From assembly GCA_017432445.1 (NCBI GenBank), contig JAFRJC010000172.1, positions 1 through 64,000 of the forward strand: 64,000 bases of DNA. The letters are read 5' to 3'. The stretch's first letter is position 1; each line of letters opens with the position of its first letter. This DNA comes from Eggerthellaceae bacterium. Its GTDB lineage: Bacteria; Actinomycetota; Coriobacteriia; Coriobacteriales; Eggerthellaceae. The notes under the pieces were generated by a model that worked only from the letters and a program-made list of their open reading frames with translations, ran no database searches and was not told the DNA's origin. A program made the translations under genes and the position numbers. Positions 21,590 to 27,632 of this stretch are shown here, piece by piece.

Positions 21590-24500
21590 TTACTTGATCT
21601 GACGGCGGAAGGCCAGCAGCTTCTCGACAACGCCCGCTGCGGTCAACCCCAAAGCAAAGGGAGCTGTAAGCGGAGCAAATGGATTCGAAGCCAATACTCG
21701 GCGAACTTCTTCGGGCTCTGGTGTAGCCGAGATCTTGGTCCAGCGCGCTCCAGGCGTTTTCGCCTCGTTCGCCTTCTCCTTGATTTCCTTAGCCATTTTC
21801 TTGTCTACGACTATCTCGGGTTTGGCAATGGGCTTGAAGTTCTCGGGCAGTTCCTGAGTCGGCGCTACCTGATTGGTTCTTTCAGGCACGTACTCCTCCT
21901 CATCATCGCCATCGCCATCGTCGCCATCGTCCTCATCTTCGAAGTCGTAGTCGTCGCCGTCGTCCCCATCATCAAAGTCCTCGTCAACGTCTAAATCCTC
22001 AGCGTCGGGGAGATTGGGGCTTGGAGACGGCTTGGAACTCTCGCCGCTCTTCTCGCTGTCTGGAGTTTCATTCCCCTCGTTTTCGGTTGAATCGTGGCCA
22101 TCTGGATCATCGCCAACTTGGACGGTCAAAAGCTGTGGGCCTGAGACGCCGGAATTGGATCCCAGAACCGCCACGACGCGGATATAGGTCAGCACCGTGG
22201 CGCCGCCCCCATCGTCGGATCCCGGGGTTATCGGGTTTGTCTTGACGCGCAGTGTCTTGCCGGTCTCGTTGGGAATCTCGGTCCACGTCTTGCATCCATC
22301 GGTCGACTGTTCCCAACGGTACTTGATGTTGGGATCGTTTTCGTCAGCCCCGATGATGTGCGAGGTAAAACTCGCCCAGCCGCCCGCGAAAGGAGGTTGG
22401 TAGTCCAGTTGAACCACCATGCCATTGCCTTCCTTGATCTGGACCGGCTTCGACGGCTTGGACGCACCTTCATCCACGATGACCGACACTCGATAGTAAT
22501 TACCGATATGCTCGTCATCGGTCGGCACGTGAATCGTCTGTTCCACGTTGGTGGCAACCTCTTCCCAAGCTCCGCTCTTCTCAGTCCAGCGCTCCCACTT
22601 GTATCCGAAACTCTGGCTACCAACCGACTCGGGCGGAACAACCGTGAGCAGCGCCGTGACGCCCTTCGGAACGGGTTGGTAGTTGATGGTGGGACGCAGG
22701 CTCTCGTCCCCCTCTTCTTCTTCGATGCCCTTCATATGCACGGTGATCGTGTTAACCCAGCGCAGCGCCGCCATGACTTCGGTGAGCGCGGGTGCTGCGT
22801 CGGATTGGTCGAACATGATCTGGAACCGCGTGTTATCGAGCAGCTTCGTGTTCCCAGTGGAATCTGCGGCGCCGTCACTTGCCGCCGCGGCGCTTCCGTC
22901 TTGAGCGCCGAGCACGGTCGCCTGCGTGGCAACGATGACATAGGAGGTTTCGGCATGCGATGCGTTGACGAGATCGGTCCAATAGACGCGCGTCGTCACC
23001 GCCTCGGCGTTTGTGAACTCCAGATACTCGATGCTCTTTTGCTTTTCGAGCGATACGCCCGCATCGTCGAGCAGAAGCGACAACGTGGTGCCGAAGCCCG
23101 CCACCGACACCAGCTCTCCATTCGGATGCGCGCCGGTCGGCAGCGTCATCGAATAAGTTTTCGAGTTGCGTTCGAGCTGCTTGCCCGTCGCCACGTTCTT
23201 CAAATCCTTGTCGTAGACGGTTGTGATCTCTCTGTAGTTCTTAGCCTCTTCGCCCTCCGAACTAGCTTCGGAATCAGTGGATTCCGGGGTGTCGTTTCCC
23301 GCGGGCGTCTCGTTCAACTCGCCGGGTTCCGTTACATTGTCCGCCGATTCAGCGGCGTCGCCTTCCGTGGATGCAGAAGCAGAGCTATCCGAGCTTTCGG
23401 ATTCGGTCCCCGCATCGAATTTGGGAACTTGCACTACAACGGTCAGCTGATCTTGATGCCGGTCTTCGCCCTGCAGCAAATCTTGGCTCCAGTCGCCGAA
23501 ATAAACGTATTCGGAATAGTCGCCGTTTTCGCCGTTCGCGCTCGTGCAGCGGACAGCATACTGCGAAGGCGCTCCTTCGCCTACCGCTACCGTCAACACG
23601 CCGCCTTGCGTGATCGAGGCGACAGTCGGATCGGTGATCTCATTCAATTCTCCATCGAGGACACTCCACCTCAAATCGGAAAGCAGCTTGCCACTCGACA
23701 TCGAGAGCGTGTTTTCCGGTGTGCTCTCGAACGTTTCTGAACCTCCTTCGGAGGCGATAGTCGATACGTTTGCCTTGGCAGTTAGGCCAAAGCCGCTCTT
23801 CTGCTCGTCAGTGAGCAAAAGCGGATGCTCTTTCGAACCATCGCCTTCTGGCGGAACTTCTTGACCGATGCCGCCGCCCACAAGGGCGTTCGTATCGGAG
23901 CGATACAGCTCGAGCGAGCTCACGTACACGATTGTGACTTGGAATTTCATCTCGAAGTCGGCAGCGCTCATGCCCTCGGGAAGCTCGTAGGCAACTGCCC
24001 CGTTCCCATCGTCTTTCAACTTGCAGGAAACCTCGACTTTTCCGGGCGACACGCCCGTGAGGGTAGCAACACCCTGCTCGAAGGTGACGGTGGCGCTCGC
24101 CGAGTCGTCGATGGGCGTTACCTTCCACTCAAGCAGGTCGTCGTTTGCAACGAGCACGGTATTGTCATCTGGCTCGTCGGCATAAGCGACCGCAGGGCGC
24201 ATGATGAAGGAGAGGGCCCCGCTTGCAGCTTGAGATAGCGAATTAGGTTCATCTTGATCGAGCCCGTTTGGGGTGAGGTCGTCCGATGGGGGTGTGGTGG
24301 GCTCGCTAGGCTGCCGGGGAATTACCGTCCAGGTGGCCTCGTAAGAGGCGTCTCCCGCAACCGGAGTGGGGGTTGGATTCCAGCCCGCGAACTCATACGT
24401 GTAGTTATCGTCATCGGGCCTCGTCACCGTACCGGAGTAAGACGGGGTGTCACCGTAGTAGTACTGCTCGCTGTATAGGTCGCCTTTGTAGCCATCGTTC

Positions 24501-25519
24501 CAGGTCACGGTATATAATCTCAGGTTTTGCGAATAAACCGCCCTATACTCTTGATCCTTGTCCGCAGCATAGGGCACGGGATCCCAATGTGAGAACAAAT
24601 AGGTGTATTCATCGTCGGGATTCTTGGAGGGGCCTTCGCGGCTCGGCACCTCACCCGCTTTCACCTCATCGCTTCCCAAGAGGCTGTTATCCGAATCGTA
24701 CCATTTGATCGTATAGGTCTTGCCAGCCTTCGGAGTGTAGGTCAGGTCCTTGTCCTTGTTGAGCTTGCGGTCTGCCGGCAGCCCTTCGCCATCGCCGTCA
24801 ATCCAAGACTCCTCGTCAATGGAAGTCCCGCTCGGTACGGGTATGGTGTCGCCAAAACGGATAGTGTAGCCGGCAATCTCATTGCCATCGGAGTCCTTGT
24901 ACGTAATCGTATGCTCGTTTCCCTCCCACTGCGCAGCATAGACGACGTCTTTTTCGACCTTCTCGGCAACGGGCGCATAGCCCTTCTCGGAATCATATGG
25001 CCATTGCCTGCCTTCGTCATCCAGCCAACCGGCGAACGAGTAACCGTATCGCTTGCCATCATAGTTTTCGGCAATCTCGAAACTCGGGGTTTTCGATCCC
25101 TTCGAGAGGTGTTCATGCACATCGTCTGGAAAGACCAACTCGTCATCGACGCCATCGGTGTAGGTCACCTTGAGGTCGCCGCCCCAATCGGGAATGACGA
25201 CGAACTGCATTCGACCTTGGGTCGCCAACTTGAGTTCGGGAGCCTCGAAGTGCTCGCCCTCACCCGTTTTGACCACAGCCACACGTTGCTTCAGGTCATC
25301 CTTTCCCGCATTCGCCCAATCGATGTTATCGGGATCGGCCACTTGCCATATCTCGAGATTCGAGAGGGTTCCGTCTGCATGATTGGCGAGCGGGTCTAGG
25401 TTGATTGCCGCGAACGCCAAGCATTCGACACGGAATGACGACCAGAACACGAGCGCGAACACGAGCAACATACGTATTGCCCTTACTGCGTGCTCTCTAT
25501 TCAAGAATCGCTTCTGCAT
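21590..25519 (-). CDS. Giant surface protein with InlB-type repeats and a C-terminal membrane anchor
   Basis: A 1309-residue exported protein. Residues 1-38 are a signal peptide (basic start, AFAA cleavage region). Residues about 150-400 hold several Flg_new/InlB-type beta-grasp repeats, each with a YTITWYDSD-like start and a FAGWNPTP or FSHWDPVP end. A Big-like Ig module follows near 450-540, then Ig-like segments. A Thr/Ser/Glu-rich linker occurs near 705-770. A tract of almost pure Asp/Glu lies near 1190-1230. The protein ends with a hydrophobic helix (PFALGLTAAGVVEKLLAF) and RRQIK. There is no LPXTG motif, so it is likely anchored by this helix. A second AxA-like stretch (RPAVAYADEP near 441) hints at internal processing. 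It is the third gene after exbB-like and DUF2149 genes (63-base gap). Confidence 0.85.
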   Translation of the reverse strand: MQKRFLNREHAVRAIRMLLVFALVFWSSFRVECLAFAAINLDPLANHADGTLSNLEIWQVADPDNIDWANAGKDDLKQRVAVVKTGEGEHFEAPELKLATQGRMQFVVIPDWGGDLKVTYTDGVDDELVFPDDVHEHLSKGSKTPSFEIAENYDGKRYGYSFAGWLDDEGRQWPYDSEKGYAPVAEKVEKDVVYAAQWEGNEHTITYKDSDGNEIAGYTIRFGDTIPVPSGTSIDEESWIDGDGEGLPADRKLNKDKDLTYTPKAGKTYTIKWYDSDNSLLGSDEVKAGEVPSREGPSKNPDDEYTYLFSHWDPVPYAADKDQEYRAVYSQNLRLYTVTWNDGYKGDLYSEQYYYGDTPSYSGTVTRPDDDNYTYEFAGWNPTPTPVAGDASYEATWTVIPRQPSEPTTPPSDDLTPNGLDQDEPNSLSQAASGALSFIMRPAVAYADEPDDNTVLVANDDLLEWKVTPIDDSASATVTFEQGVATLTGVSPGKVEVSCKLKDDGNGAVAYELPEGMSAADFEMKFQVTIVYVSSLELYRSDTNALVGGGIGQEVPPEGDGSKEHPLLLTDEQKSGFGLTAKANVSTIASEGGSETFESTPENTLSMSSGKLLSDLRWSVLDGELNEITDPTVASITQGGVLTVAVGEGAPSQYAVRCTSANGENGDYSEYVYFGDWSQDLLQGEDRHQDQLTVVVQVPKFDAGTESESSDSSASASTEGDAAESADNVTEPGELNETPAGNDTPESTDSEASSEGEEAKNYREITTVYDKDLKNVATGKQLERNSKTYSMTLPTGAHPNGELVSVAGFGTTLSLLLDDAGVSLEKQKSIEYLEFTNAEAVTTRVYWTDLVNASHAETSYVIVATQATVLGAQDGSAAAASDGAADSTGNTKLLDNTRFQIMFDQSDAAPALTEVMAALRWVNTITVHMKGIEEEEGDESLRPTINYQPVPKGVTALLTVVPPESVGSQSFGYKWERWTEKSGAWEEVATNVEQTIHVPTDDEHIGNYYRVSVIVDEGASKPSKPVQIKEGNGMVVQLDYQPPFAGGWASFTSHIIGADENDPNIKYRWEQSTDGCKTWTEIPNETGKTLRVKTNPITPGSDDGGGATVLTYIRVVAVLGSNSGVSGPQLLTVQVGDDPDGHDSTENEGNETPDSEKSGESSKPSPSPNLPDAEDLDVDEDFDDGDDGDDYDFEDEDDGDDGDGDDEEEYVPERTNQVAPTQELPENFKPIAKPEIVVDKKMAKEIKEKANEAKTPGARWTKISATPEPEEVRRVLASNPFAPLTAPFALGLTAAGVVEKLLAFRRQIK

Positions 25520-25582
25520 TAGCTTACCTGCCTATTGAAACGGCCGTCGGATGAGTAGGTAACCTAGTCTCGGGACGCACCG

Positions 25583-25924
25583 TTACGAATTGTCTTTGCC
25601 TGTCTGGGCATCGTCCTCTTCGACGAGGTAGTACTGGCCCGTCTGCGGGTCCTGGTACACTTTGCCCCGCTCGATGAAGCCGTTGCCTTCGCCGTAGAGT
25701 TGCTCCGTCATTTCCTTGACGGCGTCAGAATCGAGCTCCTGCGTGGCATCAACCTTCTGGAACTCCGCCAAGTCGACGTTCCAAGCCACGACGAGCGCCA
25801 CCATGAGGCCGCAGGCGAAAACCAGCATGACGTCGCCGATGTTGCTCAACGAGGACATCGGATCCACTTCTTCGGCGGGCTTGCGTGATCTGAAGCTGCC
25901 TTCTTGGCTGAAATAGCTGCTCAT
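25583..25924 (-). CDS. DUF2149 protein, ExbD-like
   Basis: A 113-residue protein with one membrane helix (about 32-49) and a short basic cytoplasmic start. The run NIGDVMLVFACGLMVAL places Asp31 at the helix mouth, exactly like the proton-carrying Asp of ExbD/TolR (compare IDVMLVLL in ExbD). The outside part (50-113) is short and acidic, with YQDPQTGQYYLVEE. It matches the DUF2149 family, which is known in archaea and some anaerobes next to MotA/TolQ/ExbB genes. The start has GGAGGG five bases upstream. It lies 10 bases after the channel gene. Its role as a stator partner is an inference. Confidence 0.82.
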   Translation of the reverse strand: MSSYFSQEGSFRSRKPAEEVDPMSSLSNIGDVMLVFACGLMVALVVAWNVDLAEFQKVDATQELDSDAVKEMTEQLYGEGNGFIERGKVYQDPQTGQYYLVEEDDAQTGKDNS

Positions 25925-25933
25925 AATCCCTCC

Positions 25934-27100
25934 TTAGCGCGAAGACGGGACGTCGGTGCTGGAGCTCTGGCGAGGCTGCGCCCCGTCGCCCTCGGCAGCA
26001 CGCGAGGTATTCCAGCTCGTACGGGAGTTCCATTCGACAGCGGCAAATTCGCTTCCGGGCTGGTTCGTCTGCGTCGTCGCGACATTGGTGGAAGGACGAC
26101 TTGGGGTTGTCTCGCTTGTCTGCGGCTTCGCGTCGCGAGAGGACTCGACAGCTTTTTGCGAGAGCGGCGTATTGGAAATGGCCGATGTACGGTTGCTGTC
26201 CGCCGGAGCCGCAGCAACATCGCGAACTGCGTTCGCGCTGACACGCGCCCGATGGAAATCAGCCTCGCTCACGCCTTCGAAAGAGCTGGTTTTGTCGCTC
26301 GCGCCTGCAGCCACGTGCGATCCGCGCTTGTTGCTTGCTCTGGATGGGGCGCTGACATCTTCTTCGGGCTTATCTTCATGCTTGGCGGGCTTCACGTGCT
26401 TCGACTCGTACAGAAACGCGTAATCTGAAGGCTCCTCCACCGTAATCTTGCCCTCAGCGCGCATATCTTCGATCTTCTGCAGCATCGTGGCCATGGCGCT
26501 GTCCAAAGCAGACATGTAGTTGCCATACCAGTTAGTGCGAATCTTGCCGACTACTAGGCATACCGCAGCCGTCACCAAGCCGGCAACGGTCGTGTCGAAA
26601 GCCACGAGCAGGGAGCTGGAAAGCGTGGCTGTGTCGGCATTGCCCAAGGCTTGGATGCCAGGGCCCAAGGGAATGAGCGTGCCCATGAGGCCGAGCATCG
26701 GGGAGATGCGTGCAGCCATGTTGTTGCGCCCGGTGATGCGATCGTAACGCGTCTCTTCCTCGTTGACGAGGCGACGGATGAGGGCCACGAGGGCATCGCC
26801 TGGCAACATGCGATAGTCATAAACGGTAAGGAGGGCTATCTTCTGGCGGTTCAACAGGCCCGATTGCTCTATGACGGCAGGAATTTCATCTTCCTTCGCC
26901 GCCATGAGCGCAGCTAGGAACTTCGGCATGACAACATTGAAGTGACGCCGTTCGGAGAAGCTCTCGGCAATGATGCTGCCGATGCAGAACAGCGCATAGC
27001 CTATGAAGACGAGCAACAGAACGATATCGGGTGCGAGCAGTGACTGCGCTACGGCATGCAGAATGTCGCTGAGATATGTTTGAATGATAGACCCGTCCAT
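25934..27100 (-). CDS. MotA/TolQ/ExbB-type proton channel with long cytoplasmic tail
   Basis: A 388-residue protein. Helix 1 lies at about 26-46 (IVLLLVFIGYALFCIGSIIA), helix 2 at 130-149 (ISPMLGLMGTLIPLGPGI) and helix 3 at 162-186 (SLLVAFDTTVAGLVTAAVCLVV). The middle parts carry the MotA/TolQ/ExbB family pattern with the Thr-rich third helix. From about residue 225 a tail of 160 residues, rich in Ser, Thr, Lys and Glu, is predicted to be disordered; most ExbB proteins lack it. ATG at 27100 has GGGAG upstream; a GTG at 27118 is less well placed. It opens the operon with the DUF2149 and surface-protein genes. Confidence 0.88.
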   Translation of the reverse strand: MDGSIIQTYLSDILHAVAQSLLAPDIVLLLVFIGYALFCIGSIIAESFSERRHFNVVMPKFLAALMAAKEDEIPAVIEQSGLLNRQKIALLTVYDYRMLPGDALVALIRRLVNEEETRYDRITGRNNMAARISPMLGLMGTLIPLGPGIQALGNADTATLSSSLLVAFDTTVAGLVTAAVCLVVGKIRTNWYGNYMSALDSAMATMLQKIEDMRAEGKITVEEPSDYAFLYESKHVKPAKHEDKPEEDVSAPSRASNKRGSHVAAGASDKTSSFEGVSEADFHRARVSANAVRDVAAAPADSNRTSAISNTPLSQKAVESSRDAKPQTSETTPSRPSTNVATTQTNQPGSEFAAVEWNSRTSWNTSRAAEGDGAQPRQSSSTDVPSSR

Positions 27101-27249
27101 TGATAAAGCTCCCTTCACTTACTAGTAATACGCGATAGAGGCGCACTTCAGCTCACATTACCATTCACATAGCAAAGAATCGCCTACTCTCGAAAAAACG
27201 CAATCATCCAACGATTTCTTGACATTTCTTCGTGAATTTTGATTGAATC

Positions 27250-27632
27250 GTGCGCCGTGGCCGCGCTACGTATAGTAGTTGCGCGTGCCGCCAATCCGGG
27301 AGCCCGGCCGGACAGCCAACGGAGCGAGCGGCCTCGGGGTGCGCCAGGTTCGCGGGAGGGCCGAGCGAAGCGACCTTTGGGGTCGTGAGCGAGGGCCGCA
27401 GCGCGAAGATGGCGTGCGCCGTGGCCGCGCAGCGTATAGCAGTTGCGCGTGCCGCCAATCCGGGAGGCCGACCGGACAGCCAACGGAGCGAGCGGCCTCG
27501 GGGTGCGCTGTATTGACGTGAAAGACAAGCGAAGCGGCCTTCGGGCCGCGAGCGCAGGCTTGAACGGCAAGACGACGTGCGCCGTGGCTGCGCAGCGTAT
27601 AGTAGTTGCGCGTGCCGTTAGGCACGCGCAAC
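27250..27632. repeat. 164-bp tandem repeat, two full units and one partial
   Basis: Units begin GTGCGCCGTGGC at 27250, 27414 and 27577, giving periods of 164 and 163. Each full unit has a conserved first part (GTATAGTAGTTGCGCGTGCC, then CGGACAGCCAACGGAGCGAG), a variable middle, and a hairpin: GCGACC/GGTCGT in unit 1 and GCGGCC/GGCCGC with a TTCG loop in unit 2. The array ends with a 12-base-arm hairpin (GTTGCGCGTGCC/GGCACGCGCAAC) at 27605-27632, next to the glnA stop. The rest of the 535-base gap (27101-27249) is the AT-richer upstream region of the ExbB-like gene, with no clear promoter. Confidence 0.85.

Follow-up and report, generated by a model that had tools for sequence, protein, structure and literature searches.

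A conserved ExbB-DUF2149 gene unit with a C-terminally anchored surface protein in Eggerthellaceae: a candidate proton-driven motor possibly linked to metal import

Pairs of an ExbB-like channel gene and a DUF2149 gene are familiar from the haem operon hmuYRSTUV of Bacteroidota: HmuU is ExbB-like, HmuV is a DUF2149 protein and both are induced by iron limitation (PMC10434189), a report that describes the DUF2149 gene solely as iron-regulated, and the pair is proposed to power haem uptake with the membrane gradient (PMC12583661). ExbBD has also been called a Gram-negative property whose function in Gram-positive bacteria is untested (PMC9389320), and a recent survey considers the incomplete Ton systems of monoderms likely to be non-functional (PMC12204202). 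Here we describe a conserved three-gene unit from an Eggerthellaceae bacterium, found in a stretch of 64,000 nucleotides of contig JAFRJC010000172.1 (hereafter the window, to which all unprefixed coordinates refer), which encodes a channel of the ExbB family, a DUF2149 protein and a large exported surface protein ending in a distinctive membrane anchor. The ExbB-DUF2149 pairing, which a sequence-only reading of this DNA had pointed out, is already represented by HmuU/HmuV (PMC10434189); what appears to be new is the conserved arm-like third component in a monoderm.

A conserved three-gene unit in Gram-positive bacteria

The three open reading frames (ORFs) occupy positions 21590-27100 on the minus strand and are read in the order channel, DUF2149, surface protein, with spacers of 9 bases between the first two genes and 63 bases between the DUF2149 and surface genes, exactly where the sequence-only reading had placed them. 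The first gene (25934..27100, minus) specifies a MotA/TolQ/ExbB-family proton channel of 388 aa with three membrane segments and a low-complexity C-terminal tail; the second (25583..25924, minus) a protein of 113 aa with one membrane helix, in the position of the ExbD/TolR partner; and the third (21590..25519, minus) the surface protein of 1309 aa. Within the genus, which consists of ruminant-gut Eggerthellaceae, DUF2149 is present in 14 of 15 genomes, and the three-gene order, whose recurrence the earlier reading had proposed as a check, is found in 13 of them. In 11 of these it lies on a single contig and in two (G209, G211) it is split, with a contig end falling inside the surface gene and the remainder of that gene opening another contig; in G211 the usual citramalate synthase comes next. 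Genome G208 retains the DUF2149 and surface genes and has unrelated sequence in place of the channel, and G204 has neither DUF2149 nor the anchor. Most orthologous loci share the same flanks, namely glnA type III (glutamine synthetase III) upstream and citramalate synthase downstream, which implies that the trio was inherited vertically, and as the order is kept across the genus it is not due to chance. We consider it very likely that the three genes function as a unit.

In the 3.17 Mb assembly from which the window derives, MotA_ExbB and DUF2149 are represented by one gene each, namely those of the trio; this assembly is 96% complete and 4.8% contaminated, and single absences in it are to be taken with caution. 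The nearest named records are metagenome genomes of Eggerthellaceae or Coriobacteriaceae, several of them from ruminant gut. Eggerthellaceae are a Gram-positive family, and a search for Omp85/BamA that was positive in diderm control genomes recovered none in the window genome (G000), in keeping with the earlier remark that nothing suggested an outer membrane.

Some further features of these loci may be recorded here. In G208 (L099 3447-5509) an unrelated coding stretch precedes DUF2149, with transposase-like ORFs behind it, and an insertion or a chimeric assembly is possible; L099_30 was considered as a channel-DUF2149 fusion and dismissed, its first 208 residues being unrelated. Upstream of the channel gene, the spacer of about 500 bases that separates it from glutamine synthetase III carries two overlapping families of direct repeats (27249-27617; 133 nt at 86% and 78 nt at 81%, spacing 163-164). 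The loci are GC-rich and contain long antisense ORFs, which were discounted on the basis of their strand. Near the trio, intrinsic terminators and sigma-70 promoters were as numerous as in shuffled sequence, and their counts are hence uninformative on transcription.

The channel and DUF2149 proteins

The channel ORF as opened (25934-27118, minus) begins with a GTG at 27118, and the likelier start is the ATG at 27100, which is preceded by GGGAG. Its product matches the MotA_ExbB family (Pfam PF01618) at 40.6 bits against a cut-off of 22.9 and has hydrophobic segments at residues 34-50, 142-158 and 177-193, the three-helix TolQ/ExbB arrangement that had been perceived from the sequence alone. 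A single-sequence phmmer search against the PDB returned chance matches only; a profile of 25 channels had ExbB, MotA and PomA as its best matches there, with marginal E-values of 0.03-0.4, and was aligned by hhalign with E. coli ExbB at P 8e-6. Across the alignment of these 25 homologues E45, P133, T140, T170 (alignment numbering) and a TLIP motif are invariant, and T140 and T170, which fall in the region aligned with ExbB by hhalign, are the conserved threonines at the positions of ExbB Thr148 and Thr181. Together with Asp25 these constitute the essential residue set in ExbBD (PMC12905483). The low-complexity tail of about 160 residues, which the earlier reading had singled out as unusual and disordered, does exist but carries little weight, since its length and composition are variable and it is absent from distant homologues. 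None of the three proteins matched a PADLOC profile of Zorya or another listed defence system, and such systems were rejected on that ground.

The DUF2149 protein matches Pfam PF09919 at 35.7 bits (cut-off 27.1), and in 28 of 28 aligned members P22, D31, G39 and G87 are invariant. The codon of Asp31 lies at 25832..25834 (minus) within the segment encoding NIGDVMLV, and this residue, which aligns with Asp25 of E. coli ExbD, is presumed to be the proton-carrying carboxylate. In a low-confidence AlphaFold2 (AF2) model, with a mean predicted local distance difference test score (pLDDT) of 59, residues 22-49 form a helix, and strands 88-91 and 98-101 make up a predicted beta-hairpin that ends a short extracellular part. 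Searches for sequence relatives of DUF2149 in the PDB gave chance matches only, and comparison with TolR was weaker than that with ExbD. As the alignment of Asp31 with Asp25 is short and of low probability, we treat homology of DUF2149 to ExbD as a lead and not as a result. On the strength of family membership and conserved residues the channel and DUF2149 protein probably form a proton-driven motor of the cytoplasmic membrane that resembles ExbB-ExbD; its proton path would involve Asp31 of DUF2149 and the two conserved threonines of the channel.

The surface protein and its C-terminal element

The whole surface protein of 1309 aa has no Pfam match. Hydrophobicity is highest in two segments, the N-terminal signal at residues 11-27, within a signal peptide region (residues 1-37; 25409..25519, minus) that is conserved among orthologues, and residues 1288-1304, directly before FRRQIK, which bears out the earlier description of an exported protein with a C-terminal membrane helix and an RRQIK tail. 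The alignment of the ends of 21 third-gene proteins defines an anchor element (21593..21751, minus) with the consensus W-x16-18-NPxxPxxxP-x8-G-x7-FRR, which comprises a tryptophan, an amphipathic helix, a break at the NPxxPxxxP motif, a short membrane helix containing the conserved glycine and the FRR tail; N28, P29, P32 and P36 are invariant in all 21 tails. It is the best-conserved part of the surface protein among orthologues, with a mean column conservation of 0.65-0.70 as against 0.1-0.6 elsewhere, and AF2 models it, with pLDDT near 60, as an amphipathic helix (model residues 830-839), a break and a helix of 27 residues (843-869).

Searches of the 199 whole genomes of the class recovered strong matches to the anchor (E below 1e-19) in seven, which are exactly the genomes with the f1-type DUF2149, and every such match lies within about 6 kb of a channel pair. 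The rows of the query alignment were drawn from those same loci, so that presence there is by construction and absence elsewhere is the informative part; the Fisher value of 4.5e-13 for the overlap of anchor and DUF2149 type is subject to the same caveat. No strong copy occurred elsewhere in these 199 genomes, nor outside the known genomes among 396 genomes of the phylum. The earlier suggestion of a TonB-like arm is thus favoured by a conserved element confined to loci with the channel pair, but the topology is reversed relative to TonB and TolA and their SHLS motif is missing from the anchor, the last 60 residues of the protein containing no histidine; as a TonB or TolA arm by sequence the protein was accordingly rejected, its root being C-terminal. 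An LPXTG-type motif before the hydrophobic tail is likewise absent from the window protein and from all 21 tails, and an LPXTG sortase substrate was rejected for this reason. We found no description of the anchor element in the open-licence literature. Judging from these sequence patterns, there is a somewhat better than even chance that the surface protein serves as the arm of the motor by means of its C-terminal element.

The ectodomain was modelled over residues 440-1309, with a mean pLDDT of 67. Residues about 680-930 (22730..23482, minus) adopt in the model a sulfite-oxidase-type (SUOX) fold matching 2a99 (Z 9.7, root-mean-square deviation 3.4 over 145 residues), and next to it residues 938-1135 (22115..22708, minus) match structures of two immunoglobulin (Ig)-like domains over model residues 499-696. 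There is no cysteine between residues 659 and 1075, so that the SUOX-fold domain lacks the ligand of the molybdenum cofactor (Moco) and is unlikely to hold that cofactor as sulfite oxidase does. An acidic low-complexity linker follows at residues 1141-1230 (21830..22099, minus), in which 37 of 90 residues are D or E. Profile hidden Markov models showed that the SUOX-fold region and the anchor are common to the third genes of other operons, including importer-linked ones (L092_34, E 5e-52; L045_73, 4e-42; L044_30, 1.5e-38). Residues 121-445 (24185..25159, minus) are a lineage-specific insert, repeat-like by eye, whose columns are occupied in 14-29% of orthologues and which was gained in the subclade of the window.

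Importer linkage, rival explanations and known systems

Homologous trios elsewhere in the family, and in G022 from a different family, lie in operons that also encode a Peripla_BP_2 binding protein and, in most cases, a FecCD permease and an ABC ATPase; in L044 at least a binding-protein-like lipoprotein gene stands between DUF2149 and the third gene. The relatives' genomes carry several paralogous copies of the unit each. In the channel tree the lone trios group with the importer-linked L044, L045 and L092 with support 100/100, and because of this placement the lone form is probably derived from the importer-linked form. Elsewhere in the window genome, unlinked to the trio, a FecCD gene shares 48% identity with its L046 counterpart and adjoins a gene for a binding protein that matches, at E 1e-63, the binding proteins of the importer-linked operons. 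When lone-trio orthologues are excluded, 20 of 22 ExbB-DUF2149 loci include in their cluster a gene for an exported protein whose C-terminus is hydrophobic, although L053 and L057 qualify by no more than a weak segment; in several clusters this gene and the channel gene share a 4-base stop/start overlap. Locus L046 also contains a pair of FmdE genes and one for heavy-metal chelation (DUF364/DUF4213). In five Coriobacteriia loci a molybdenum/tungsten (Moco) riboswitch is found no more than a few kb from the ExbB-DUF2149 pair, namely in L046 (3592-3746) and in the more distant, beta-propeller-type loci L052 (12158-12288), L053 (11046-11172), L057 (10865-10991) and L058 (5090-5216), L053 having in addition ABC transporter, MobA/FdhD, MoeA and MobB genes; these riboswitches precede adjacent genes, and membership of the motor in the same operon does not follow from them. 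No riboswitch was matched in the window or beside the three FecCD loci of its genome.

Several other traits of these relatives deserve mention in their own right. The exported channel neighbours in L052 (9691-11475), L053 (7023-8906) and L058 (1274-3196) are beta-propeller-like, not of Ig/SUOX type, as judged from a PQQ_2 match in L052 and weak arylsulfotransferase-type matches in L053 and L058. A protein of 250-265 residues with the signature FDDTD...GTGKL comes directly after DUF2149 in L053 (9928-10680), L057 (9703-10500), L058 (4137-4919) and L052 (16108-16860), and its L053 copy is without a match in Pfam. In the importer-linked L045, L047, L048, L085 and L092 the binding proteins start with twin-arginine-like lipoprotein signals, e.g. 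TRRRFLQFGGA...GC. The ExbB-DUF2149 clusters L083 (178-1428) and L084 (2101-3360) include a SurA-like/rotamase protein and an M28 peptidase, and L049 and L051, of a second ExbB-DUF2149 type, are flanked by a cysteine-containing ORF on the upstream side and by a hydrophobic one downstream.

These relationships suggest that the three gene products may form one membrane machine, in which the exported protein with its Ig-like and SUOX-fold ectodomains would be rooted in the membrane by the dedicated C-terminal element, and this element would dock on the motor in the way that the membrane helix of TonB docks on ExbB, though with opposite topology, so that proton flow would move the arm across the wall. 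Ancestrally, the clade would then most likely have imported a metal or metal complex in concert with an ABC importer of the FecCD type and the binding protein of that importer, a role to which we give nearly even chances for the clade and lower ones for the lone form; in the lineage of the window the unit stands alone, the related importer lying elsewhere in the genome. The best explanation overall, which we advance tentatively, is a proton-driven motor with a C-terminally anchored surface arm that probably serves such import. The more specific notion of a monoderm counterpart of Ton, in which an ExbB-DUF2149 motor would drive a C-terminally rooted surface protein, opposite to TonB in topology, so as to supply importers of metals or metal complexes through a thick wall in cells free of an outer membrane, is rather speculative and on balance unlikely. 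Several observations count against an arm-bearing import motor. The trio lacks a linked ABC importer both in the window and at its orthologous loci in the genus, and L049 and L051 have no arm-like neighbour. The hydrophobicity of the anchor helix is moderate (1.62), and the mirror-tree correlation of channel and third protein is modest (r 0.54, from a rough alignment and uninformative). The similarity of DUF2149 to ExbD is weak: the match of NIGDVMLV and Asp31 to ExbD claimed in the earlier reading holds as regards invariance and alignment with Asp25, but that alignment covers 19 columns only, at P = 0.0028 and a probability of 11%, and the low-confidence AF2 model has no ExbD-type extracellular domain.

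The isolation of the trio from any importer throughout the genus would also suit a motor that moves, extends or exposes an adhesin-like surface protein, import being no longer its job in the window lineage. The long N-terminal insert of the subclade, typical of surface proteins, and the stalk-like tandem Ig-like domains fit such a role, to which the earlier reading had inclined in supposing that proton flow moves or exposes the surface protein. The metal-chelate binding proteins and ABC importers of the relatives point to uptake instead: both the ectodomain core and the anchor have homologues among the third genes of importer operons, a related importer persists in the window genome and the insert is missing from most orthologues, so that we regard surface motion as a minor, though real, possibility. 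The anchor consists of a motif, a hydrophobic stretch and a basic end, the same three parts that make up known C-terminal sorting signals, and a dedicated enzyme might process the surface protein and detach it from the motor. General sorting signals recur on many proteins, however, whereas the anchor occurs once per motor operon with no strong copy elsewhere in whole genomes, and the neighbourhood common to these loci showed no processing enzyme, although no search for one was made genome-wide; such processing is improbable.

Adaptation of an hmu-type haem uptake module to a monoderm would account for the shared protein families, HmuU being ExbB-like, HmuV a DUF2149 protein and both induced by iron limitation (PMC10434189). 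The immediate flanks of the trio, however, are glutamine synthetase III and citramalate synthase rather than hmuY, hmuR or hmuS, and some relatives adjoin molybdenum/tungsten riboswitches, FmdE and Moco genes instead of haem genes, which leaves this origin slightly less probable still. That the unit is a non-functional remnant, as suggested for incomplete monoderm Ton systems (PMC12204202), would agree with its being incomplete by Ton standards, given that it lacks a TonB-like protein with an SHLS helix. We think this very improbable, because the reading frames are intact, the catalytic-type residues invariant and the order stable in 13 species, and because relatives keep several paralogous copies per genome. 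Here bacteria devoid of Omp85 keep a conserved candidate motor that has been duplicated repeatedly, has a putative surface arm to itself and in relatives is accompanied by an importer, which contrasts with the view of such systems as non-functional (PMC12204202). The preferred reading of an arm-bearing motor makes the role of monoderm Ton-like systems testable through one residue, Asp31, and one anchor of 50 residues, and DUF2149, which belongs to a haem operon of medical relevance, gains a defined set of neighbours. Given the metal-uptake operons of close relatives, the trio may be a nutrient-import motor of a kind so far understood only in two-membrane bacteria.

Among described systems, hmuU-hmuV shares with the trio an ExbB-family gene adjoining a DUF2149 gene, but the hmu host is a diderm with the TonB-dependent receptor HmuR and the CobN-like HmuS, and the available parts of the hmu descriptions mention no C-terminally anchored surface protein with an NPxxPxxxP...FRR element. 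TonB-ExbB-ExbD and TolA-TolQ-TolR resemble it in channel homology, in the aspartate of the partner helix and in a membrane-rooted arm beside the channel; their root, however, is an N-terminal helix with SHLS, whereas that of the trio is C-terminal and devoid of SHLS, its partner protein has no recognisable ExbD extracellular domain and its host no outer membrane. MotAB, PomAB and the other 5:2 ion-driven motors belong to the same channel superfamily, and DUF2149 differs from their partners in lacking a peptidoglycan-binding domain. Ordinary FecCD-type importers have no ExbB-like motor and in the window are unlinked, yet in the same family it is FecCD-type metal-chelate ABC importers with Peripla_BP_2 binding proteins that are linked to homologous trios.

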